This document shows, in pieces, positions 5,270 to 58,034 of a stretch of 64,000 nt of DNA; the stretch's first letter is position 1; each line of letters starts with the position of its first letter. The position numbers and the translations under genes were made by a program. The notes under the pieces were generated by a model, which made no database searches, had not been told where the DNA came from, and worked only from the letters and a program-made list of their open reading frames with translations. Where the stretch lies: assembly GCA_029571215.1 (NCBI GenBank), contig JAKPTE010000040.1, positions 62,001 through 126,000 of the forward strand, in the 5' to 3' direction. This stretch comes from Bacteroidota bacterium (GTDB lineage: Bacteria > Bacteroidota > Bacteroidia > Bacteroidales > JAAYUG01).

Positions 5270-7243
5270 TTGCAGGCAGTGACCGATATTTCTGTTATCA
5301 TTGTCAATTATAATGTTCGGCATTTTCTGGAGCAATGCCTTAATTCGGTGTTAAAAGCATCGCATTCCCTGATTACGGAAATTATCGTTGTTGACAATGC
5401 CTCGGTCGATGACTCATGCCACATGGTAAAGGTTAAATTTCCTATGGTGCGGCTCATTGAAAACAACCTCAACGTTGGCTTTTCCCGGGCCAACAACCAA
5501 GGAATAAAAATTGCCACAGGCAGGTACATTCTTTTACTCAATCCCGATACGGTTATTGAAGAAGATACGCTTGAAAAATGCTTCCGGTTTATGGAATCCC
5601 ATCCGAATGCAGGAGCAATGGGCGTCAAAATGATCGATGGGAAAGGAAATTTTCTTCCGGAATCGAAAAGAGGGTTCCCCACCCCAATGGTTTCTTTCTG
5701 GAAAATCATAGGACTCACTTCTCTCTTTCCACGCTCCCGTATTTTTGGCCGATACTACCTTGGACATCTGCCTTCCGACCAGATCCATACAATTGATATT
5801 CTGCCGGGTGCTTTCATGTTCATCCGCAAGAAAGTTCTGGAAAAAACCGGACTTCTTGACGAAGAATTTTTCATGTATGGCGAAGACATTGATCTTTCAT
5901 GGAGAATAAAGCAGGCGGGATATGAGAACTATTATTTTCCCGAAACGACCATTATTCATTATAAGGGCGAAAGCACTAAAAAGGGAAGCCTGAATTATGT
6001 ATATACTTTTTACAATGCCATGATTATTTTCGCCCGGAAGCACTTTTCTTCAGGCAGTTTCCGTTTTTTCTCCCTGCTGATCCACATGGCAATCTGGTTA
6101 AGAGCCGGATTTTCAGCATTACAGCGGATTCTTTTCCGGATCAGTCTTCCGGTGGCTGATGCAGCAGTAATTTATCTCGGGTACCTGCTCATCAGACCTT
6201 TCTGGGAAGAATATAAATTCGGACAGAGAAATTATTACCCACCTGAATATATGCAGGTGGTTGTTCCAGCATACATTCTTGTGTGGTTGGTCGCAGTTTT
6301 CTATTCCGGAGGATACGAACCTCCGGTGCGTTTATGGAGAATTGTTCGGGGAATTCTGGCCGGAAGCCTTTTTATTCTGGTAGTATATGCTCTTCTTCCT
6401 GCTTCGCTCCGGTTCTCCAGGGCGCTTATCCTGCTGGGAACCCTGTGGACTCTTGTTGCTCTTCCTCTTGAAAGAGTTTTTATGCGGTTTGCCGGCTGGA
6501 AAGACAATGCCCTTAGCTTCCCGAAGAAGAAACGGATTGTCATTGCCGGGTCATACAAGGAAGTGCAGCGTGTTGCTTCCCTTCTTAACGAAACAGGATT
6601 ACCATTTGAACTGGCGGGATATGTTGCTGAACACCGGGATGAACATTCCGAAACAGATTATCTGGGAACTACCGATCAGCTGCCCGAGATTATCAGAGTC
6701 CATGCTATTGATGAAATTATTTTTTGTGCCAGGGATATTCCTTCCGCTCAAGTAATTGAAAACATGCTCCGATTGAGCGAAACACGAACTGAATTCAAAA
6801 TAGCTCCTGAGGAAGGCGTTTCTGTCATCGGCAGCAGCAGTATTGACACACCAGGTGCCATCTATACCCTGCACTATAATTTGATTGCTCGTCCCTCGGT
6901 TCGGCGTATCAAAAGACTGATGGATACTGGTGTAGCGTCCCTCCTTCTGGTGTTTTTTCCCGTCATTGCATGGATCATTCCCAGGCCACTGCGCCTGCTG
7001 AGAAATATTTTCCGTGTTTTTTCAGGGAAAAATACATGGGTGGGGTATTTCTCAGGAATCCCCGATTCAACCTATCAGTTACCCCCTCTTCGCCCCGGAA
7101 TCCTCTCCCCTGCCGATCTGTACGATAGCAGCAAACTTTCTGCCGAACTCGCAAACACCCTGAACATAAATTACGCCCGTGATTACCGGATTACCCGTGA
7201 TCTCTATATTATTGCAAAAGCATTCAGAAAACTTGGCCGATAA
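5270..7243 (+). CDS. GT2 glycosyltransferase fused to a membrane and nucleotide-binding region with a degenerate polyprenyl-phosphate sugar-phosphotransferase-like C-terminus
   Basis: N-terminal GT2 (ISVIIVNYNVRHFLEQCL, LLLNPDT, DEEFFMYGEDIDLSWR), TM helices, Rossmann-like KKRIVIAGSYKEVQRVASLL, then KRLMDTGVASLLLVFFPVIAW and LPPLRPGI. TTG start. Confidence 0.82.
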   Translation: MQAVTDISVIIVNYNVRHFLEQCLNSVLKASHSLITEIIVVDNASVDDSCHMVKVKFPMVRLIENNLNVGFSRANNQGIKIATGRYILLLNPDTVIEEDTLEKCFRFMESHPNAGAMGVKMIDGKGNFLPESKRGFPTPMVSFWKIIGLTSLFPRSRIFGRYYLGHLPSDQIHTIDILPGAFMFIRKKVLEKTGLLDEEFFMYGEDIDLSWRIKQAGYENYYFPETTIIHYKGESTKKGSLNYVYTFYNAMIIFARKHFSSGSFRFFSLLIHMAIWLRAGFSALQRILFRISLPVADAAVIYLGYLLIRPFWEEYKFGQRNYYPPEYMQVVVPAYILVWLVAVFYSGGYEPPVRLWRIVRGILAGSLFILVVYALLPASLRFSRALILLGTLWTLVALPLERVFMRFAGWKDNALSFPKKKRIVIAGSYKEVQRVASLLNETGLPFELAGYVAEHRDEHSETDYLGTTDQLPEIIRVHAIDEIIFCARDIPSAQVIENMLRLSETRTEFKIAPEEGVSVIGSSSIDTPGAIYTLHYNLIARPSVRRIKRLMDTGVASLLLVFFPVIAWIIPRPLRLLRNIFRVFSGKNTWVGYFSGIPDSTYQLPPLRPGILSPADLYDSSKLSAELANTLNINYARDYRITRDLYIIAKAFRKLGR

Positions 7244-8784: not shown

Positions 8785-11700
8785 ATGAAATATATAACCA
8801 TAGCATCTCTTCTGTTATTCCTGATTTCCGGGAATGTTAATGCACAAAAAGCCGATCAGAGGACGCGAAAACCTGACCCCAAGGAGTCTTTCCTCGAAGC
8901 AGAATCCTACTTTCTTTTTGAAGAATACCAGGAAGCTCTGCCAATTTATATGCGGCTTCTTAAACTATTTCCGGAAAATGATAATCTGAAATACCGTATT
9001 GGCATTTGCTTGCTGAATGACCCGTACCAGAAAGAAGAAAGTATCAGTTATCTTGAACAGGCCATTAAAAACTGTGCCAAAGATTATAAGGAAAACAGCT
9101 TTAAAGAAACGCGGGCACCACTGGATGCATGGTTCTATCTCGGGAAAGCCTATCTTGTCAATAACCGCATCAATGAAGCCATTGAGGCCTATTCGCATTT
9201 TCGGAAAATCCTGGATCCGAAAGTTTATGATGCCAATCTCGTTGATGAACAGATTGAGGCCTGCAAAAACGCCATCAAACTCATGAAGAAGCCCATTGAT
9301 CTTGACTTCATCAACCTGGGAGAGCCCATTAACAGCCGCTTTGCCGAAACCAATCCTGTGGTTACCCATGACGAAACTTCCATGCTGTTTATCCGAAAAC
9401 TTCAGTTCTATGATGCCGTTTTTTATTCCAGAAAGGTAAATGGGCAATGGACTGAACCGGAGAATATTATGTTTGATCTCGGTGTGGATGGGGATATGTA
9501 TCCCTGTTCCCTCTCAGCTGATGGCACTGAGGCGTTCTTCTACAGTAATGACAATTACCTGGGTACCATTTTCACCAGCAAACTGGTAAACGGGAAATGG
9601 ACCAAAGTACGGGCCTTGAACTCCAACATTAATACCAAGTACTGGGAATCCCATGCCTGTATTTCAGCTGATGGAACAACCCTGTATTTCACCAGTAACC
9701 GCAAAGGTGGTTTCGGAGGACTTGACATATACAAATCTGTCCGTACTCCCAACGGAGACTGGGGCCCGCCGGTAAATCTCGGCCCTACCGTCAACACCAG
9801 GTACAATGAAGACACTCCCTTTATCACAGAAGATGGTAAAACATTGTATTTCAGTAGTTACGGCCACCTGAATATGGGAGGGTATGATATAAACTACACT
9901 ACCCTGCTGGACATTGGCTCTTGGGCAGTTCCTGTAAATGCAGGTTATCCCATCAATACTACTGATAATGACCTGTTTTTTGTTCCTGTGAAAAACGGAA
10001 CCTTTGCCTATATATCAAAATATCTGGAAAACAACACCCTGGGACGAGCTGATATTTTTAGGTTTGAAATCTATTCGGGCGTTCATCCCCGAAAATTTAC
10101 CATCAAAGGTATAATTGCTCTTCCCGGAAAGGTGGAAGCGGCTAATCAATCGGCTAACATTTACGCCCTTCAGATCCTTACCAGGGATACTGTTTACAAA
10201 ACCACCGCAAACGCTGCAGGGGAATACAGCATAACCGTTCCGGCCGGTGAGTATGATCTTCTCATTAACATGCCGGGGTATCTTCCTCATATTCAGCGGC
10301 TTCTTGTACCCAAAGATTATAAAGAAGGAGACATCGCACTCTCTTCCCTCCTGAAACTTCCTCCTGAAGAGAAGACCATCGTTCCGGAATCCAAAGTAAC
10401 ATCCGAACCTCCCACAATTTCCGTGCGTCAGAATACATTCACTTTAAAACAGCCCGGCCCTGTTCGCATAATGATAACAACCGACAATGCCCATTCGCTG
10501 GATGTTAATGCCTATGTTGACAATCGTCCCGTCAGGTCGGATCTGATACCTATTGAGAAAAAGCGCTTTGCCTATGTTTATTATCCTGAACCAGGGTTGA
10601 ATATTGTTGTGCTTACTGCCACAGGCGAAAATATGCAGAAGGTCTCCGATACGGTAATCATCAATCTTCAGATGCCTGTTCAGCAGGAGGGTCTTAATAA
10701 AAAACAAAATTACATCCTGGAAGGAAAAAATTTGCTGGACCAGTTGCATAAGTCAGGAACGGAAAACATCAGGAAAGCCCTGCAGAACATTCGTTCTGAA
10801 AAAATGGGAAATCCATCTGCCAGAGAACTTGCCGGATATTTATTCATGCATGCTGATTCCCTTGGCTTTTCACAGGAGGAATTTCTCATCAGCCTGGCCT
10901 ACCTGTCGGCCCATATGCCTCTTGACGAACTCATAAGTCGTTTGCAGGCCAATTCATCCGGTGCGCTCAGGAAAGAACTTCAGCAAATAAATCCTGCTCA
11001 GCTCGGTATAACAGAAGGAACCCAGCTGATAGACTACCTCATTGAACATGCCGCCGAAAAAGGATTTACCAAACAGGATGTCCTTTATTCACTTGCCGCG
11101 GTAGCAGCTTCCGATGTAATGCCGGGACAGCAGTTTATTGACAAGCTTTCAGCCTTCGCATCAGGAGACAATTACACCTTTTTGCACAACCTGCGACTCC
11201 CATCTTCCCTGAACACCATTCCATCCATCACTGATTACTTGTTTAAACAAGCAAAAGCAGGCGGAATTCCTGAGTCCGATCTGCAAATGATTCTCGTAAG
11301 AGCAGCTTCTACTTACCCGATGAACGAATGGCTGGAAAAACTGATCCCCTTTGCAGAGGGGAATCTCCGCAGATTTATTGTATCAGTGCCCTCCCTGGAG
11401 AATAAACTGTATTCCCCGGAACAACTGGTGAGGTACCTCCTCGATCATACCGCTGAAAGAAAATACACTACAGACGATCTGCTGGAAATGTTTACCGCAG
11501 CTGCCATGAGCGAACAAAACAATGTGGCAGCATTCCGTGAAATCCTTCTTCACCATTCCACCAACAGCCTGCATGCCACCATCAGTATCCTCGATCCGGT
11601 AAAATCGGCCATCTATACCAATCAGAGATACGCCGACACACTTCTGCGGTTAGCTCCTTTGAAGGGGTATTCGGAATCGGAATTCCTGAAAATGCTTACT

Positions 11701-13257
11701 TCTGCTGCATTTGAAGGTGATCCAGACGATCATTTGTACCGAATTGCCATGATGCTTTCTGCTGATGAAGCAGGAAAATTTCTCTCTGTTAATCTGGAGA
11801 AACAAGGTATCTCCTCACTGGAGGATCTTTCAAAATTCATGGGTTCAAAGAAAAGTCCCGTCAGGATGAACCCGGCTATGGTCAACCAGACTGTAGCAAC
11901 TTACCTTGCTTCCCGCCAGGTGGAAATGTACCTTAGAAAAATGCTTCCTCTTACAAAAGGGAATTTGCGCTATCAGCTCGAAAAAACCGATCCCTACAAG
12001 CTTGGATTGTCTTCCGTGCCGGAGTTGATTGACCACCTCTTTAAACAAGCTCCGTCAGCAGGTTATAGCGAAGACGAACTATTACAGGCCCTGGAAAAAA
12101 CTGATGACCGGCTGATGCTGGAACGTGCCTGGAATAGGATGGTCTTTCAAGCTAATGATACCCTGGCTGATTTTATCCGTGAAAACCATTACGAAATAAT
12201 TAAAAAATATTCCCGCAGTGAATATTTCAATTATATTACGGAATCACTTCCAGCAGGAAAAACTGATGATATTCGCAAGGTTATTGCCGGGTCCATAACC
12301 GGTACACAGGAGCCCGCCGCTATTTACGACAGAATGCTTTCCCTGAGCACGGGTTCCCTGAAAAATTTGTTGCAACAGGCCCAAACAAAAAAACTCTTCC
12401 TGGCTCCTTCCTTCCCTGAAAATTTCTTTGACAGTAATCGCTGGGGCAAAAGCACCACCGGAAACATGTTTGATCTGTATCTGAAAGCTATTGCTTCATT
12501 GGAGAGTAACCATCTTTTTTCAGAAATGCAGGAACTGGCTGATCCGTCCCTGAAAGGATATTTATCGGCACGTGGGAAAAAGGAACTGACCTTTGATTCA
12601 AGGAACCATCTTCTGGAATCACTTTTCAAAGCCTCATCCGTACAAGAATTTGATAACAGGGATGCCGGAATTCTCATCGGCCGGATTCATGAACGAATGC
12701 TGGCAGAAAACATTCTGGAAAATTTCCGGCATTTTGTGCAACAAGCTAGTGGAACAACAGCCGCACCTCAGGAAGAGGAAATCAAAAATATACGGGATCT
12801 GTTTATCAATATTCTTGAAAACGGAAAGGCATTTGGGCTTTCCCCCGACAAGATACACCAACTTTTCCTTGCATTCCATGATGAAACGGAGCTTGACTGG
12901 TTCAGGGAAAAGCTTTCAGTCTATGCCGAAGGTGCTCTCAAAAACACATTGGACCGCCTGATCCGGTCAGGTCAACCTTTTAAAAATGCCTATGACCTGG
13001 TGGAATGGCTATACACCAATGCACCCGCCAACGGATATTCAAGGGAAGACGTTGTACACCTGCTGGTGCGCATTATCAATGATATGCTGCAGAACCTTCT
13101 GGCCCGCATTACTGACATGGAACGGATGCAGCACAAGACTTTCCCGGTGGTTCCGGTTGCAGGGGCATTGCTCCTGACAGCTCTGATCATTTTTCTCCTT
13201 TTTGCTGAAAGAAAGAGAAGAAAAAAGAAGACGGAAAATTCATCCTCTATCGGATAA
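8785..13257 (+). CDS. PorE-like protein: TPR, PD40 propeller, carboxypeptidase-regulatory-like domain, long helical repeat region, C-terminal TM with basic tail
   Basis: Signal peptide; TPR (EAESYFLFEEYQEALPIYMRLLKLFPEN); PD40 (LYFTSNRKGGFGGLDIYKS); FTIKGIIALPG...YSITVPAGEYDLLINMPGY; repeats; VAGALLLTALIIFLLFAERKRRKKK. Confidence 0.85.
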   Translation: MKYITIASLLLFLISGNVNAQKADQRTRKPDPKESFLEAESYFLFEEYQEALPIYMRLLKLFPENDNLKYRIGICLLNDPYQKEESISYLEQAIKNCAKDYKENSFKETRAPLDAWFYLGKAYLVNNRINEAIEAYSHFRKILDPKVYDANLVDEQIEACKNAIKLMKKPIDLDFINLGEPINSRFAETNPVVTHDETSMLFIRKLQFYDAVFYSRKVNGQWTEPENIMFDLGVDGDMYPCSLSADGTEAFFYSNDNYLGTIFTSKLVNGKWTKVRALNSNINTKYWESHACISADGTTLYFTSNRKGGFGGLDIYKSVRTPNGDWGPPVNLGPTVNTRYNEDTPFITEDGKTLYFSSYGHLNMGGYDINYTTLLDIGSWAVPVNAGYPINTTDNDLFFVPVKNGTFAYISKYLENNTLGRADIFRFEIYSGVHPRKFTIKGIIALPGKVEAANQSANIYALQILTRDTVYKTTANAAGEYSITVPAGEYDLLINMPGYLPHIQRLLVPKDYKEGDIALSSLLKLPPEEKTIVPESKVTSEPPTISVRQNTFTLKQPGPVRIMITTDNAHSLDVNAYVDNRPVRSDLIPIEKKRFAYVYYPEPGLNIVVLTATGENMQKVSDTVIINLQMPVQQEGLNKKQNYILEGKNLLDQLHKSGTENIRKALQNIRSEKMGNPSARELAGYLFMHADSLGFSQEEFLISLAYLSAHMPLDELISRLQANSSGALRKELQQINPAQLGITEGTQLIDYLIEHAAEKGFTKQDVLYSLAAVAASDVMPGQQFIDKLSAFASGDNYTFLHNLRLPSSLNTIPSITDYLFKQAKAGGIPESDLQMILVRAASTYPMNEWLEKLIPFAEGNLRRFIVSVPSLENKLYSPEQLVRYLLDHTAERKYTTDDLLEMFTAAAMSEQNNVAAFREILLHHSTNSLHATISILDPVKSAIYTNQRYADTLLRLAPLKGYSESEFLKMLTSAAFEGDPDDHLYRIAMMLSADEAGKFLSVNLEKQGISSLEDLSKFMGSKKSPVRMNPAMVNQTVATYLASRQVEMYLRKMLPLTKGNLRYQLEKTDPYKLGLSSVPELIDHLFKQAPSAGYSEDELLQALEKTDDRLMLERAWNRMVFQANDTLADFIRENHYEIIKKYSRSEYFNYITESLPAGKTDDIRKVIAGSITGTQEPAAIYDRMLSLSTGSLKNLLQQAQTKKLFLAPSFPENFFDSNRWGKSTTGNMFDLYLKAIASLESNHLFSEMQELADPSLKGYLSARGKKELTFDSRNHLLESLFKASSVQEFDNRDAGILIGRIHERMLAENILENFRHFVQQASGTTAAPQEEEIKNIRDLFINILENGKAFGLSPDKIHQLFLAFHDETELDWFREKLSVYAEGALKNTLDRLIRSGQPFKNAYDLVEWLYTNAPANGYSREDVVHLLVRIINDMLQNLLARITDMERMQHKTFPVVPVAGALLLTALIIFLLFAERKRRKKKTENSSSIG
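10750..13130 (+). repeat. Protein-level degenerate helical repeat array, period about 66 aa
   Basis: Recurring register such as AGYLFMHADSLGFSQEEFLISL / IDYLIEHAAEKGFTKQDVLYSL / TDYLFKQAKAGGIPESDLQMIL / VRYLLDHTAERKYTTDDLLEMF / IDHLFKQAPSAGYSEDELLQAL / VEWLYTNAPANGYSREDVVHLL. Confidence 0.75.
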
Positions 13258-13377: not shown

Positions 13378-15198
13378 ATGAGGAAACAAATTTCCGGTAT
13401 CTTTTTCTTCCTTTTACTTGTTACATTGGAAGCTTTTCCGCAAGCTGCCGGCGAAGCCCTGCAGGAAGTATTCAATGATGCTGAGTATTTTTTTATGCAG
13501 GAGTTTTACGCTGATGCCCTTCCCGAGTACATGAAAGTCTATAAAAGAGGTTTCGCCGATAACGCAAGTATTAACTACAGAATCGGAATCTGCTACCTGA
13601 ATATTCCCGGACAGAAAAAGGAAGCTATTCCTTATCTGCAGAAAGCATCGCAAAATCTTACTCCTTCTTATAAGGAAGGTAACATAAAAGAAAACAGAGC
13701 TCCGTACGACGTATTCTTATACCTTGGCAATGCATATCGCATTGACAATCAACTTGATAATGCCATCAAGGCCTACGAAAAGTACCTGGAACTCATGAAA
13801 AATGTGTCGAATGAAATGACACAATTTGCCCTTCAGGAGATTAATGCCTGTAAAAATGCTACCGAGATGCAAAAGCATCCTGTTCCGGTTTCGAAAGTCA
13901 ACCTCGGGAAACCGGTAAATTCTGCAGAAGCCAATTATAAACCTGTTGTTTCACAGGACGAATCGGTACTTATTTATGTAAACAGGCTGAAATTTTATGA
14001 TGCCATTTACATGAGCCGGAAAATTAATGGAAAGTGGTCGGCTCCTGAAAACATTACAGAACAGTTGCAATCGGACGGAGATCAGTACCCGTGCTTTCTT
14101 ACACCCGACGGAACGCAACTCTTTCTGACCAAAGAAGACCAGTTTAACAGCGACATTTATACAAGTGCCTTTTCCAAAAACCAATGGAACAAATCCAGGC
14201 CGGTTGGAAAAACTATCAATTCCAAGTTCTGGGAATCACATGCCAGTGTAACAGCCGATGGCAACCATATATATTTTGCCAGTAACAGGAACGGAGGTCT
14301 AGGAGGAATGGACATTTATCGTTCCGACAAGCTACCCAATGGCGACTGGGGGCCTCCCGTTAATCTCGGACCGGTAATAAATACTTCGCTCAACGAAGAT
14401 TGTCCTTTTATTACTCCTGACGGGAAGAAACTTTTCTTCAGTTCACAGGGTCACTCTACAATGGGAGGATTCGATATCTTCTGTTCCAGTCTGAAAGAAG
14501 ACGGCACATGGGATGAACCGCAAAATCTCGGCTATCCTCTGAATACCACCGACGATGATTTGTTCTTTTATCCCGTTCAGGATGGCAAGGCCGGTTATAT
14601 GGCCCTCTACGAAGAAGGAGGACTGGGTGATGATGATATTTACCGGATCGAATTCGTGCCAGAAACAAAAGAAGAAAAAGTGCCGCAGATAGTTCCTGCC
14701 GAAACTGAAAAAGCCGTTGTTCCTCCTCTGGATACCACACAAAAACCCGAAAAACCGCCCGTTGTTCCCCCACCTGCCCTGCCGGAAAAAATTACGGTGC
14801 ATCCCATCCTGTTCGGATTTAACCAGGCATTGCTCACTGCAGAAGCCAGGAACGTACTGGACCTGCTTGTAAGAGCCCTTCAGTTAAACAATGACCTGCG
14901 TGTGGAGATTATTGGCCATACAGATGCCATTGGATCGGATGAATACAATATGAACCTCGGAAAAAAGAGAGCCGAAATGGTTAAGCTATACCTGACCAAC
15001 CGGCACATAGCTCCGTCGAGAATTACCACTTCCTCCATGGGCGAACGTAATCCGGTTGCTATCAATAAAAATCCTGATGGATCAGATAATCCCGAAGGCA
15101 GAAAATACAACCGCAGGGCTGATTTCAAGATCATTGCCGGGGATAATGGCCTGCTCATCATCGAACCATTGCAGATTCCGGCTTCACTCAAAAAGTGA
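13378..15198 (+). CDS. PorE-like protein: TPR, PD40 propeller, OmpA-family C-terminal domain
   Basis: TPR and PD40 region parallel to the neighbours; C-terminal VEIIGHTDAIGSDEYNMNLGKKRAEMVKLYL is a typical OmpA peptidoglycan-binding motif. Confidence 0.87.
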   Translation: MRKQISGIFFFLLLVTLEAFPQAAGEALQEVFNDAEYFFMQEFYADALPEYMKVYKRGFADNASINYRIGICYLNIPGQKKEAIPYLQKASQNLTPSYKEGNIKENRAPYDVFLYLGNAYRIDNQLDNAIKAYEKYLELMKNVSNEMTQFALQEINACKNATEMQKHPVPVSKVNLGKPVNSAEANYKPVVSQDESVLIYVNRLKFYDAIYMSRKINGKWSAPENITEQLQSDGDQYPCFLTPDGTQLFLTKEDQFNSDIYTSAFSKNQWNKSRPVGKTINSKFWESHASVTADGNHIYFASNRNGGLGGMDIYRSDKLPNGDWGPPVNLGPVINTSLNEDCPFITPDGKKLFFSSQGHSTMGGFDIFCSSLKEDGTWDEPQNLGYPLNTTDDDLFFYPVQDGKAGYMALYEEGGLGDDDIYRIEFVPETKEEKVPQIVPAETEKAVVPPLDTTQKPEKPPVVPPPALPEKITVHPILFGFNQALLTAEARNVLDLLVRALQLNNDLRVEIIGHTDAIGSDEYNMNLGKKRAEMVKLYLTNRHIAPSRITTSSMGERNPVAINKNPDGSDNPEGRKYNRRADFKIIAGDNGLLIIEPLQIPASLKK

Positions 15199-15327
15199 GC
15201 GGTTACTGATTTAACAGACTTCTTGTCCATACGTTGGATTCAATCTGAAGGTCTTTTCTTTTTTGGCTTGTAATTTCATATCATTTTGTTAATTTTGGTC
15301 AATACTGACATTTTCAATTCAGGAGCT

Positions 15328-16659
15328 ATGAAGAAAAGATTACCTGCAATGTCCCTGGTTCAGGGATCGCTTGTTCTCCTGATGCTTCTTCTGGTTTCGA
15401 CATACCAGCTTAAAAGCCAGACCCTTGCAGAAAGAAAGGAACTTTTCAGCAACGGAATGTTCTTCTTTGAATCAGAGGACTACAAAGAAGCTGTTTACTA
15501 TTTTCTGAAATTGCATGATTATAATCCTAAAAACGGAAACATCAATTACCACATCGGCATGTGCTACCTGAATATGCCCGGAGAAGAATACAAAGCTATA
15601 CCGTATTTTGAACAAGCATTGGAAAAAGCTACCATTCAATACAAGAAAAGCACATTTGAAGAATCGAAAGCCCCGTTTCATACTTATTTTTATCTTGCAC
15701 AGGCATACCGTATCAACAACCAGCTTGATAAGGCCCTCGAAATGCTTGATAAATTTACCTCTTCACGATATTTTGAAGGAAACTACAACGTGGGCGTTGT
15801 GAATGCCGAAATTGAGGCCTGCAAACGAGCCAAGGTTATACAGGACAAACCTATAGAGATCGAACTCACTAACCTCGGAGAACCTATTAATACGCCGTCC
15901 AACAACTACGACCCAGTTCTTACACCCGATGAATCGGTGATCATTTATATGACAAGCCTGAAATTCTACAATGCCATTTTTATGTCACGAAAAGTTGACG
16001 GAAAATGGACAGAACCGGAAAACATCACACCTCAGGTAGGCTCTGACGGCGAATCCTATCCGACCTGCATCTCTGCCGATGGCAGGGAACTCTACCTGGT
16101 AAAAAAAATCAAAAACAGCAGCCATATCTATGTGAGCCACTGGGAAAATGATAAATGGTCGATCATGCAACCCCTTAACAGCAATATAAATTCTTCTAAG
16201 TCGGAGATTTACGCCTGTCTCTCTCCTGATGGAAAATATCTCTATTTTTCCAGCAACAGACGGGGCGGGCTGGGTGGTTTTGATATCTGGCGCTCGGAAA
16301 AAATAAACGGAGACTGGGGCAAAGCAGAAAACCTCGGCCCAAATATCAATACAAAATCGGATGAAATTGCCCCCTTTCTTTCAGCCACCGGTCGCGTGCT
16401 CTTTTTTGCTTCTCAGGCACACCAGAATATGGGAGGATTTGATATCTTTTACTCCAAACTTGATAACCAAAATAAATGGTCACCCGCAATCAACATTGGC
16501 TTCCCGATCAATACCACCGGTGATAATAAATTCTATTTTCCTGTCGGAAACGGAACATCCGGGTATATTACCCGAAAAAAAGACGATTCGGATATGATGG
16601 ATATTTTCCGTGTAACTATTCTGAGCGGTGATCAATTAAAAGACCTCCAGAACCAATAA
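15328..16659 (+). CDS. PorE-like protein: TPR and PD40 propeller only
   Basis: FFFESEDYKEAVYYFLKLHDYNPKNGNINYHIGMCYLN and YFSSNRRGGLGGFDIWRS are parallel to the two upstream genes; no OmpA domain. Start at MKKRLP. Confidence 0.83.
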   Translation: MKKRLPAMSLVQGSLVLLMLLLVSTYQLKSQTLAERKELFSNGMFFFESEDYKEAVYYFLKLHDYNPKNGNINYHIGMCYLNMPGEEYKAIPYFEQALEKATIQYKKSTFEESKAPFHTYFYLAQAYRINNQLDKALEMLDKFTSSRYFEGNYNVGVVNAEIEACKRAKVIQDKPIEIELTNLGEPINTPSNNYDPVLTPDESVIIYMTSLKFYNAIFMSRKVDGKWTEPENITPQVGSDGESYPTCISADGRELYLVKKIKNSSHIYVSHWENDKWSIMQPLNSNINSSKSEIYACLSPDGKYLYFSSNRRGGLGGFDIWRSEKINGDWGKAENLGPNINTKSDEIAPFLSATGRVLFFASQAHQNMGGFDIFYSKLDNQNKWSPAINIGFPINTTGDNKFYFPVGNGTSGYITRKKDDSDMMDIFRVTILSGDQLKDLQNQ

Positions 16660-20575: not shown

Positions 20576-23065
20576 TCAGGATAACTGAGGAAAACGCTGT
20601 GGATAAAGATGGTGCATCATCCTGTAGATAGCATCGAATACATCTTCAGCATTCGGGTTTGAAAAATAATCCCCGTCGGATGAATAGGCAGGACGGTGCT
20701 CCCTGGCTGTAATCAAAACAGGTTCATGATCGAGCCATTCGAAACCACCATTGCTGTATAAAACCTTGTCGGCCATATACGCAGTAGCCCCTCCGGGTAC
20801 ATCTTCATCCAAAAATACAACCCGGTTGGTTTTTTGCAGAGATTTCAGCACCATCCCGGGAAGGTCAAAAGGGATAAGGGTTTGTATGTCGATAACTTCA
20901 GTGTCAATTCCCTTTTCCGAAAGTTGTTTGGCTGCATCCATGGCAATTCTTACGCAGGCTCCGTAAGTCACCAGGGTAACATCCCTGCCTTCACGAAGTA
21001 TTTCAGGTACGCCAAGTGGAATTCTGTATTTACCCGGATTGACAGGTCTGGGTTCTTTCAGACGGTATGCGTTCAGTGGCTCCACGATCAATGCCGGACC
21101 GTCCGCTTCGAGAAGGGTATTGTAAAAACCGGCAGCTTGCGTCAGATTACGGGGTACACAAACATAAATCCCCCGGACGCTGTTGATGATCATGCTCATA
21201 GGAGAGCCGGAATGCCATATGCCTTCCAGCCTGTGACCCCGTGTACGTATAATCAGAGGCGCTGACTGCCCACCCGCCGTTCTCCATCGCAGACTTGCCA
21301 GATCGTCACTCAGAGTTTGCAGACAATACAAAATATAATCGAAATATTGAATTTCAGCTATGGGTCGTAATCCACGCATGGCCATCCCTATACCCTGCCC
21401 GATGATGGTAGCCTCACGGATCCCGGTATCAGTAATACGCAACGGGCCATATTTTGCCTGCAACCCCTCCAGACACTGGTTTACATCACCCAGGGTGCCT
21501 GTATCCTCACCAAAGGTAACCAGTAAGGGATTGGCAGCAAACAGGGCATCAAAATTCTCTTTAAGAATTTCCCTTCCGGCAAGATAGGCAGGAGGATCAT
21601 CGTACACCGGGGCAACAGGTTCAACAAAAAGAGCAGACCGACGGGTTTCGTTGTACAAATGGCTCTGGTACCGATCTGCCATTATCCTTGACATTTGCGA
21701 AATCCATTCCTGCAGTTTTTCCTGTAATTCACGCCGGGTAGGACAATCCGGGCAGATATACCGCAGAATCCTTCGTGCTGAACTATAACTGTCGCGGAAA
21801 AGAGGACTTTCAATTTTTCGCAGTTCACCTGCAATAAGAGAAATCTTGTCAATGTGCTCCCGGCGACAGACACAACCTTTCCTTTCAACAATCTGCAGCA
21901 GACGCTCCCTTTCTTCCAGAATCGGCCTCTGATAAGCTTCCCATGCCGTATCCCTGGCTTTTCTGGCACGCATCTCTGCTTCCGTTTCAATCCGGTCAAG
22001 CTCCTGTCGGCTGGCGATGCGCGTGGTAAGAATCCACTGCCGCATTCTTCCGATAGGATCAAAATCCGCCTCAAATTTCAGCCTTTCCGGTGGCTTATAC
22101 CGCTCATGCGACCCGGATGTGGAATGCCCCAGAGGCTGGGTCATCTCCTGAATATGAAAAAGCACCGGAACATGATGATCCCTGCACAGCCTGATTCCTT
22201 CTTCAAACAACCGGCATAAACCCGGATAATCCCATCCTTTTCCCCTGTAAATAGCAATCCCGGGATGATCGGCATCCGCCTCAAAGCCTTTCAACAGTTC
22301 CGATATACTGCCTTTGGTGGTTTGTATACCTACAGGAACCGAGATCCCATATCCGTCATCCCATACAGCAATAGCAAGTGGCACCTGCAGTACACCCGCC
22401 GCATTCATCATTTCAAAAAAAAGACCCTCACTGGTGGCTGCATCACCAATAGTTCCGAAAGCTACTTCGTTCCCTTTCCTTGAAAGCTGAGTATAAGGAT
22501 GCAACTGGACATTCTGACGGAAAAGTTTGGAAGCATATGCGAGGCCGAGAAGACGGGGCAACTGACCAGATGTCGGAGAAAGATCAGCAGCCGAAATCTT
22601 CAAGGAGGTAAGATCTTTCCAGCTTCCGTCGGGATTGATATACCGGGTGGCAAAATGGCAAACCATCGACCGCCCCCCGTTATCAGGATTGTGATCAAGG
22701 TCCGTATCGCCATATAACTGGGCAAAGAAAGTCTCTGGTGTTGTAAGCCCCGCAGCCAGCATAAAGGTTTGATCACGATAATAACCTGAACGCCAGTCAC
22801 CTTCTCTGAACTGGTGCGCCATTGCTATCTGAGCTATTTCCTTCCCGTCGCCAAATATTCCAAATTTAGCCTTCCCCGACAAAACTTCCTTTCTGCCAAG
22901 AATGCTCATTTGCCGGCTCAAGCAGGCAGTATAGTAGTCGTCAAGTACCCTTTTTCTGAATTCAGGAAAGCTTATTTTACTGAGAGAATCTGTCACCTTG
23001 GTAAACGCATTGACCAAATAAAAATACAACCTTTTTTCAATTCCTTCACATCTTTCCCGATGCAA
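20576..23065 (-). CDS. Fused alpha-beta E1 2-oxo acid dehydrogenase (branched-chain/pyruvate type)
   Basis: E1-alpha TPP motif FGTIGDAATSEGLFFEMMNAAGV...DGYGISV fused to E1-beta (LLVTFGEDTGTLGDV, DTGIREATIIGQGIGMAM, VTYGACV). Confidence 0.9.
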   Translation of the reverse strand: MHRERCEGIEKRLYFYLVNAFTKVTDSLSKISFPEFRKRVLDDYYTACLSRQMSILGRKEVLSGKAKFGIFGDGKEIAQIAMAHQFREGDWRSGYYRDQTFMLAAGLTTPETFFAQLYGDTDLDHNPDNGGRSMVCHFATRYINPDGSWKDLTSLKISAADLSPTSGQLPRLLGLAYASKLFRQNVQLHPYTQLSRKGNEVAFGTIGDAATSEGLFFEMMNAAGVLQVPLAIAVWDDGYGISVPVGIQTTKGSISELLKGFEADADHPGIAIYRGKGWDYPGLCRLFEEGIRLCRDHHVPVLFHIQEMTQPLGHSTSGSHERYKPPERLKFEADFDPIGRMRQWILTTRIASRQELDRIETEAEMRARKARDTAWEAYQRPILEERERLLQIVERKGCVCRREHIDKISLIAGELRKIESPLFRDSYSSARRILRYICPDCPTRRELQEKLQEWISQMSRIMADRYQSHLYNETRRSALFVEPVAPVYDDPPAYLAGREILKENFDALFAANPLLVTFGEDTGTLGDVNQCLEGLQAKYGPLRITDTGIREATIIGQGIGMAMRGLRPIAEIQYFDYILYCLQTLSDDLASLRWRTAGGQSAPLIIRTRGHRLEGIWHSGSPMSMIINSVRGIYVCVPRNLTQAAGFYNTLLEADGPALIVEPLNAYRLKEPRPVNPGKYRIPLGVPEILREGRDVTLVTYGACVRIAMDAAKQLSEKGIDTEVIDIQTLIPFDLPGMVLKSLQKTNRVVFLDEDVPGGATAYMADKVLYSNGGFEWLDHEPVLITAREHRPAYSSDGDYFSNPNAEDVFDAIYRMMHHLYPQRFPQLS

Positions 23066-56000: not shown

Positions 56001-58034
56001 AATGGCTCTACCGGGAGCACGCTGCCTGTTCCTGGCAAAGGGAAGTACATTGTGCGGGTAACTGATACCAGAGGAAACGGGTGTGTCAATTATGATACCA
56101 CGGTAGTTGAAAAACTAACCATCAACCTGGCACTTGATTCTATTATTCATCCGGTAAATGCATGTGAACTGGGAACCCAGGAACACGTTACCGTGAGAAT
56201 TTTCAACGCGGGCAACGATACCCTTTCGCCCGGAGATACCATCCATGTTGGATTTAGCTTCGAAGGCGGACCGGTCAATACAGGAAAGAAGATACTTACC
56301 TCCCGCCTCTATCCGGGTAGTTTCACCACCTATACCTTTGCCGGCAACGACCTTGATATGAGCCAGGAACGAACCTACTCTCTAAAAACCTTCCTCTCGT
56401 TCCGATATGACAGCCTGCCGACCAATGATACCCTGCAGCGAAACATCACCGTATTTGGATATCCCACTGTCAATATTGGTCCCGATACGGTAATATATGG
56501 CCTTACGTATCAGCTGGATGCAGGCCCCGGGTATAAAACCTATCTGTGGAACAACGGAGATACTACCCAAACCTACATCGCACGTTTTATGGGAAATCAC
56601 TGGGTAAGAGTAACCGACGTTCACGACTGTCCGGCTTACGACACAGCCTTTATTCATCTTGTTATTCATGACGTTTCTCCGGCAGCTCTCCTGCAGCCGG
56701 TAAACAGTTGTCTGCCACAGGGCACAAAACAAATTCGGATCAGAGTGCAAAACAGCGGCACAGATACCATTTCGGCTGGTGAGAAAATTGCTGTAGCTTA
56801 CCGGATTGACGACGGCCTGTGGATAAATGATACGGTAACACTGTCATCTTCCATGAAACCTGCACAATATGTGGATCATACCTTCACCCCTTCCGAATCG
56901 TTCAATACAATCGGAGTATGGAACATCCAGGCACGTACCCTCATCGCAGGAGATATCAATCCTGAAAATGACACGGCATCGTTCACCGTTCACGTTTGGG
57001 GGAATCCCACAGTAAATCTTGGAAATGACACCACGGTGAAAGCACTGTCATATTTGCTGGATGCTGGAGCCGGACCCAACCGGGCCTATCTGTGGCGCGA
57101 CGGAAGCACCGGGCAGACCTATACCGTTACCCAGTCAGGGTTCTACTACGTGAAAGTGACCGATACCATTTCAGGATGCTTCTCGCGCGATACTGTAGTG
57201 GTTCAGCTGGTTATTGACGATGTGGGAATTGCCGGCTGGATTGGTGATACGGCATTGTGTTCAGCACAGTTTAATGGTATAACGGTTACCATAAAGAATT
57301 TCGGAACGCCGCCCTATCCGGCCAATAAAAAAATTCCGGTTTACTACATACTGAACGGAAACCCCGTGGTTAAAGATACCCTCACCCTGCAGAACACCCT
57401 GGCTCCCTCAGGCACAGTAAACTTCACCATCACAAAATGGCCAGTCAGACCGTCAGGGCCTGCTTCTATTTCCATTTTTACCAGCATGCAGGGAGACCTC
57501 AGGCCGGAAAATGACACCCTGAACCGGCAATTCGCCGTTAATCCAAGTCCGGTAGTCAATCTGGGTGGAACAAACGACACGATTGAATACACTGTTGCCC
57601 CGGTGCTGCTGGATGCAGGCAGTGGATTCGCATCCTACTTCTGGCAGGACGGTTCAACAGAACAGACCTACCCGGTCATCTCCCAGGGCTGGTACTGGGT
57701 AAGGGTTACCAATGAATATGGCTGTCCTGATACCGATTCCGTTTTCCTGCACCTGAACACAGGAATCATCAACCCCGAAGCCCAGCCTGTTCAGTTTGCA
57801 GTTTATCCCAACCCGGCCTCCGATCATCTGTTCTTCAAGGCAGAATTCAGGAAAACAACTACCCTGGAACTGGAATTTCTGGATGTACAGGGCAGAATAA
57901 TCATGAACAGACATCTTTCGGGTGACAAAGCTTACCATGAACTCATCAACCTGAATACTTTTTCTCCGGGTGTTTATATCCTGAAAGTATCCAATGCCGA
58001 CTTTGTAAGAGCAACAAGGATCATTGTCCGTTAA
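53079..58034 (+). CDS. Secreted multidomain protein (1651 aa) with T9SS type A sorting domain
   Basis: Signal peptide; two jelly-roll-like domains ending ...GNGTCIDNVTI and ...YSGWNIDDFLVIG; CARDB/Ig-like repeats; C-terminal YPNPASDHLFFKAEF...LDVQGRI...FSPGVYILKVSNADFVRATRIIVR. Confidence 0.88.
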   Translation: MIKKIFLSGIILCILGISLFGQATLLFETFESGTKPDGWTEIKRSGVTLIPWEYMQGGRWQDHPYPDTAAAGQKNAVFGWQSYNNEATMLVTKPVNLTGRTKPELRFWHAQATWSWGGQNYSDQLKVYYRIGKNSTWHQLAEYLVAVENWTFRQIPLPSEAITDSVYIGFEGITKYGNGTCIDNVTILETEISPLRISNVGISQATAQFVASGTINNPVIKIVLNVIGNDGTCVLQNLSIRSKNTDDDDIAINGVKLYYTADTFFNASTPLGTPQSLSGGTASFTGLNKELKFGMNTVWVTLDLKETAQEGHFIDLQIDANAITVNGQTYPGSAADPAGARPIYQKIFIDDFEADKGWQLTGDFERDVPKGKGGVVIDPNFTGGSPDPSFAYSGTKVLGNDLNGIGTYPGNYELNVSYEAMNKVVSPPLDLKYFKDVNISFYRWFNIYYQDDAQIQAGTDGVNWLKFYGNEMDGGTVSEDLWNFRNYPLPPAMARKNNLKVRFTLGPTSDSRSYSGWNIDDFLVIGDFVAKDVGVARWISPSTGCGLSSAESVTVVVKNYGAQTANAPIPVSYSFNGGQSWVTENINQNIAPDDSVIYTFAQKADLSLPQVFTSVHARTTYPGDEDSSNDQTDTIVYSLPYSTPPYSDDFEQGISFWRPYGKNSTWQHGTPNGFTLKTTASGLKAWKTFLTSYYLDDDSSYLESPCFNFTGIEKPIVEFKLWHETEKDHDGLRLEYSTDNGSSWHIVPKDPYSYPWYWYNSSFVSALNSPGWDSTSNGWVTARQFLPAACANQPLVKLRFHFESDLLTTYEGVGIDLFRIYEAPIDIGVSSFKDLNTACLNDNSNYLKVYVKNYGKGTVKAGEKINLKAKVNTNPIVSDTITLSANLSSGDSVLLTFTRPVNLGAPGHYTVKAWTNNETDPHFYQPVSNDTATKIIDIYPLPLTGLLDTMRSSRPDTIVLRPHSDPNYDYYWYYNGSTGSTLPVPGKGKYIVRVTDTRGNGCVNYDTTVVEKLTINLALDSIIHPVNACELGTQEHVTVRIFNAGNDTLSPGDTIHVGFSFEGGPVNTGKKILTSRLYPGSFTTYTFAGNDLDMSQERTYSLKTFLSFRYDSLPTNDTLQRNITVFGYPTVNIGPDTVIYGLTYQLDAGPGYKTYLWNNGDTTQTYIARFMGNHWVRVTDVHDCPAYDTAFIHLVIHDVSPAALLQPVNSCLPQGTKQIRIRVQNSGTDTISAGEKIAVAYRIDDGLWINDTVTLSSSMKPAQYVDHTFTPSESFNTIGVWNIQARTLIAGDINPENDTASFTVHVWGNPTVNLGNDTTVKALSYLLDAGAGPNRAYLWRDGSTGQTYTVTQSGFYYVKVTDTISGCFSRDTVVVQLVIDDVGIAGWIGDTALCSAQFNGITVTIKNFGTPPYPANKKIPVYYILNGNPVVKDTLTLQNTLAPSGTVNFTITKWPVRPSGPASISIFTSMQGDLRPENDTLNRQFAVNPSPVVNLGGTNDTIEYTVAPVLLDAGSGFASYFWQDGSTEQTYPVISQGWYWVRVTNEYGCPDTDSVFLHLNTGIINPEAQPVQFAVYPNPASDHLFFKAEFRKTTTLELEFLDVQGRIIMNRHLSGDKAYHELINLNTFSPGVYILKVSNADFVRATRIIVR

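Follow-up and report, generated by a model that had tools for sequence, protein, structure and literature searches.

Gene and Domain Organization

The gene under study occupies positions 8785..13257 of the plus strand of the window (the whole 64,000-nucleotide stretch of Bacteroidota DNA that was analyzed), where 1490 codons are open across the entire frame; a promoter scan scored no better than shuffled sequence. The open reading frame, Pfam, comparison with relatives and AlphaFold modeling jointly resolve the 1490-aa product into a signal peptide, TPR region, PD40 beta-propeller, CarboxypepD_reg-like domain (CRD), beta-sandwich, helical repeat array, transmembrane (TM) helix and basic tail, all encoded on the plus strand. 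The signal peptide on which the earlier note's reading depended is present (residues 1-20, 8785..8844, cleavage likely after NVNA), as judged from the sequence, a lipobox scan and the export-signal-like N-termini of relatives, and it is devoid of a lipobox Cys. The TPR region (residues ~33-165, 8881..9279) is supported by Pfam TPR_2, TPR_6 and TPR_14 (mostly sub-gathering) and by family conservation, the propeller (residues ~175-430, 9307..10074) by a PD40 match (3.4e-13) and invariant residues, and the CRD (residues ~437-510, 10093..10314) by a Pfam match below the gathering score (5.3e-6) together with strands in the model. The proposed parallel with the OmpA-bearing neighbor holds, as Pfam recognizes PD40, TPR and CarboxypepD_reg here and the neighbor is a TPR-PD40-OmpA protein.

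Pfam gives no match beyond residue ~511 of the 1490-aa protein (the last ~970 residues). Here, AlphaFold strands and Foldseek matches to Ig/Fn pairs delineate a second, Ig-like beta-sandwich (residues ~544-628, 10414..10668), followed by the repeat array (residues ~655-1450, 10747..13134, period ~66 aa), defined by self-comparison, a repeat profile and models. The earlier note had placed the array right behind the regulatory domain; the repeats are indeed there, but the second beta-sandwich intervenes. The chain ends with a TM helix (residues 1455-1473, 13147..13203), assigned by hydropathy and conservation, and a basic tail, AERKRRKKKTENSSSIG (13204..13254, net charge +5), delimited by comparison of tails across the family.

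The order of TPR, beta-propeller and CarboxypepD_reg is the same in PorE (PG1058) of the type IX secretion system (T9SS), a protein that binds the outer-membrane barrel PorP, possibly via its TPR or propeller domain (PMC9143113). PorE additionally has a lipoprotein signal and a C-terminal OmpA peptidoglycan-binding domain, its C-terminal domain having been crystallized and solved together with a peptidoglycan fragment (PMC7192894). The protein studied here, unlike PorE, lacks both the OmpA domain and the lipobox, and carries instead the second beta-sandwich, helical repeats, C-terminal TM helix and basic tail. Its TPR-PD40 part also matches the CHU_0125 family of OmpA-like outer membrane integrity proteins; deletion of CHU_0125 itself impairs outer membrane integrity, which is lost, and increases vesicles sixfold (PMC5891637); PorE was judged dispensable for outer membrane integrity in P. 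gingivalis (PMC5053529). By NCBIfam, the first 510 residues score 132 bits (2.2e-38) against PorE (NF052230, cut-off 600 bits) and 135 bits (2.4e-39) against the CHU_0125 family (NF053607, cut-off 620 bits). Both identities are ruled out by these scores and by the missing OmpA domain, and that of PorE also by the missing lipobox, although the cut-offs are strict, as a complete TPR-PD40-CRD-OmpA protein of the same genome (L161) fails too (PorE, 254.5 bits).

A Helical Repeat Array of Variable Length

The anticipated ~800 residues of helical repeats are borne out by self-comparison and a repeat HMM, the array extending over 795 aa. Self-comparison is dominated by offsets of 66, 133, 266, 333 and 399 residues, and an iterated profile captures ~57 core positions per unit with an approximate pattern sGNLkxxLxxLdLxxxxIxsxxxLixYLxxxAxxxGYsxxDvxxLL. 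With a repeat HMM derived solely from other families, residues 641-1450 reach 253 bits, and none of 200 shuffles gives a match. Seven units are clear (residues 659-717, 723-776, 792-851, 856-917, 925-981, 1058-1105 and 1380-1437) and two are weak (1001-1023 and 1328-1371); the middle of the array (~1110-1327) is helical in the model, partly at low confidence, and too diverged for clear units.

A match of the repeat to some well-characterized family, which the earlier note had named as a finding that would count against it, was not seen in Pfam or PDB searches: sequence searches of the PDB with repeat profiles yielded no convincing relatives, and known helical repeat families (TPR, HEAT, ARM, others) were not convincingly matched in Pfam or PDB. 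Pfam analysis of 27 arrays produced scattered weak matches (AAA_assoc_2 in 6, EF-hand pairs in 5), which we read as chance. In a 1060-residue AlphaFold model, two beta-sandwiches are followed by helices to the end, the C-terminal one of 31 residues; its confidence (pLDDT 72, pTM 0.30) is low for overall shape and reach, and in Foldseek it gave significant E-values for the Ig-like part only. The first four repeat units modeled alone reached pLDDT 88 and pTM 0.82. Against the PDB, this four-unit model gave a best E-value of 0.12 and a TM-score of 0.25 among the matches listed in Foldseek, and against viral models nothing better. Thus, this protein family adds a helical repeat without a Pfam or PDB match; the fold, unmatched in the PDB and viral models, may exist among predicted cellular structures.

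Family Distribution and Membrane Anchor

A repeat-region search of 60 related genomes recovered one relative within the genus (79% identity), one within the family (24% identity) and four in further families. The repeat profile matched in 29 of 393 genomes of the order and, in a 396-genome sample of the phylum, in the window's own genome only. This distribution underestimates the TM family, because repeat-less members are invisible to the repeat profile. A contig scan with the window's repeat region gave no match, and a search with the family alignment gave 79 loci, with further members in assemblies titled uncultured Bacteroidales or Bacteroidota; its matches in cultured Marinifilum and Labilibaculum do not carry the TM version.

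The C-terminal TM helix with a basic tail, as the earlier note had described it, is a family trait: all 28 of the relatives picked by repeats alone begin with a segment resembling an export signal and end in a single hydrophobic helix with a basic tail; these end types come from regular expressions and hydropathy, not from a topology predictor. By the positive-inside rule, a basic tail lies in the cytoplasm and the remainder of the protein in the periplasm. The family-wide signal peptide, single C-terminal TM helix and positive tail thereby support the predicted inner-membrane anchoring with a periplasmic remainder, and we regard the architecture, along with a topology deduced from sequence, as well supported. 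A wider set of 74 non-redundant TM members, which is no test of TM conservation because it was chosen for the TM helix, spans 583-1494 aa and 0 to 11 detected repeats, zero meaning none detected by a profile that may miss diverged repeats. Repeats are undetectable in 16 of the 74, and the helical arm is thus not essential to the family; these members suggest that the anchor is the constant element and the arm a variable addition to it. Lipobox-like matches occur in 5 of 71 TM members, and the protein from the window has no Cys in residues 1-60.

The same C-terminus admits two other explanations. In gross layout, a C-terminus made of a hydrophobic helix and then basic residues resembles a removable exosortase (PEP-CTERM-like) sorting signal instead of a permanent anchor; but such signals have a conserved motif before the TM helix, none of which was found ahead of it in the 74 members, and the window protein has no NCBIfam sorting-signal match, making this explanation very improbable. 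A signaling or wall-sensing protein, whose repeats would read envelope spacing instead of forming a structural tether, would accord with the variable repeat number and the large periplasmic head. We find such a role improbable, given that tails of TM members, mostly charged at +2 to +9, are predicted to expose just ~4-17 residues to the cytoplasm, without a signaling domain.

Ancestry was assessed on an unrooted FastTree tree of 262 TPR-propeller regions with the C-terminal parts left out. The TM label requires 5 changes on this tree vs. 62.7 in shuffles. One branch (support 72) unites 70 of 71 TM members with three non-TM rows, one masked (L106), one cut by a contig end (L099) and one apparently truly without a TM helix (L137); within it, a narrower branch with support 99 comprises 55 TM members along with the masked row. 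Since TM members group on a tree of N-terminal regions only, the anchor is the mark of a coherent lineage rather than of C-termini acquired by chance here and there. L137 (6424-7986), a 520-aa protein from a sheep omasum assembly, is the one row of the clade whose lack of a TM end has no explanation. Overall, the combination of a TPR-propeller head, helical repeats and a TM helix defines a conserved and apparently undescribed family. The earlier note did not recognize the architecture as described, and it is absent from the open-access papers searched, one of which mentions PorE homologs with C-terminal extensions and shows none (PMC5053529).

Gene Neighborhood and the T9SS

The gene order glycosyltransferase, lipoyl-E2, TM member, OmpA member, short member, GNAT and holA recurs across families, with the TM-member gene keeping its position after the lipoyl-E2 gene. 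The glycosyltransferase gene, found upstream of the TM family in most loci, encodes in the window (5270-7243) a 657-aa protein in which the glycosyltransferase is joined to a CoA_binding_3 segment of the kind usual in sugar-phosphate transferases; the Bac_transf domain is seen as a weak fragment only. Pfam, NCBIfam and a lipobox scan characterize the two paralogs downstream, both on the plus strand: the adjacent one (13378..15198, 606 aa) is a TPR-PD40-OmpA protein of peptidoglycan-binding type without a lipobox, and the third (15286..16659, start probably at ~15328) is a TPR-PD40 protein with no recognized C-terminal anchor. Few proteins of these clusters show a lipobox-like motif, unlike PorE.

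The expected co-occurrence with OmpA-type paralogs extends beyond the window. Among the 59 loci with at least 4 kb of downstream sequence, another TPR-PD40 paralog is present in 53, and one ending in OmpA or SPOR stands alongside in 46; these ends are motif calls, and of three proteins run through Pfam two were SPOR (one sub-threshold) and one OmpA, the latter having been motif-labeled SPOR and possibly carrying both. A fixed partnership with the neighbor is not universal, because in genomes of one family (f38) the TM-member gene has no adjacent paralog. The SPOR-like TPR-PD40 proteins beside a TM member (L084, 16667-18616; L100, 12291-14246; and others) join the propeller to a domain of the septal-wall-binding type.

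An accessory T9SS part, i.e., an inner-membrane-linked PorE variant holding the PorK/N ring or the motor to the envelope, is suggested by the PorE homology and by the presence of the system itself: the genome encodes 20 T9SS CTD proteins over the cut-off (TIGR04183), one of them with its sorting domain in the window (57801-58031, in a 1657-aa open frame), and GldM occurs in 27 of the 29 repeat-bearing genomes. This co-occurrence carries no information, because GldM is present almost throughout the order (357 of 393 genomes, vs. 29 with the repeat, whose distribution does not track it), and the same figures make a core T9SS role less likely. The immediate cluster contains no T9SS gene, and the same genome holds separately both L161 and a PorP-linked PD40 protein (L162), from which the window cluster is thus distinct. 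In the latter locus (L162, 6139-12800), the PD40 protein lies beside an apparent PorP/SprF-like barrel and a large protein whose C-terminus is of gliding type (names given from reading the sequences, not from a family search), the layout of a typical PorP-linked cluster. We therefore consider an accessory T9SS role unlikely. Of the link from the inner membrane to the envelope or T9SS that the earlier note had envisaged, the envelope part would fit the co-clustered OmpA and SPOR paralogs, and the T9SS part is weak.

Proposed Role and Comparison With Tol-Pal

On balance, we favor reading this protein as a PorE-like family member anchored in the inner membrane, which probably ties that membrane statically to the wall or outer membrane; by analogy, its logic would resemble that of Tol-Pal more than that of a T9SS component. 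The protein would be exported via Sec and lose its signal peptide, with the C-terminal helix staying in the inner membrane and the basic tail facing the cytoplasm. The TPR-propeller head would be held out in the periplasm on an alpha-helical solenoid of ~66-aa repeats, variable in number between species, and may dock there on an outer-membrane or wall-bound partner. We infer this tethering function and its partners, the likeliest for the head being a protein like those served by the PorE TPR-propeller, or the co-encoded OmpA/SPOR paralogs. The TM member would thus supply, in part of the order, the inner-membrane end of a paralogous PorE-like set.

The likeness to Tol-Pal (TolA, TolB, Pal, CpoB) is one of outline: TPR, propeller, helical arm, inner-membrane helix and OmpA-domain partners. 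No TolB above the cut-off was found in the window genome, which is 76% complete. In a 2025 analysis, tol-pal loci were not detected in Bacteroidetes, and PorE was proposed as a compact Tol-Pal substitute, read as a CpoB-TolB-Pal fusion possibly relying on a partner similar to TolA/TonB (PMC12204202). The reported absence of tol-pal loci, and the combination of an inner-membrane TM helix, a long helical arm and a TolB-like propeller, could also suit a TolA-like force transducer powered by a motor of the TolQR/ExbBD or GldL type. However, the TM helix of TolA is N-terminal and bears motor-contact residues, whereas here it is C-terminal, with no conserved polar or charged residue in the TM segments of 74 members, which makes an energized role less likely, and the window cluster contains no motor gene. 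The TolA C-terminal domain binds Pal/TolB, whereas this protein ends in the TM helix and tail with no TolA domain III, and the long periplasmic arms, the one studied here being helical by AlphaFold, are alike in kind only, with no homology shown. We accordingly hold a force transducer to be improbable as well.

The static tether that we prefer bears on the question of how inner membrane, wall and outer membrane are coupled in Bacteroidota without a recognizable Tol-Pal. The TM family is a concrete candidate for such coupling, because it is a conserved membrane-anchored paralog beside wall-binding ones. A more far-reaching but doubtful version is that the family may supply the inner-membrane arm so far missing from a Tol-Pal replacement in Bacteroidota, its propeller mounted on a helical ruler of new fold, whose species-specific length would span the periplasm to the OmpA- and SPOR-anchored paralogs.

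Elsewhere in the window (20576-23065), an 829-aa protein matches both 2-oxo acid dehydrogenase E1 alpha and E1 beta within one chain.
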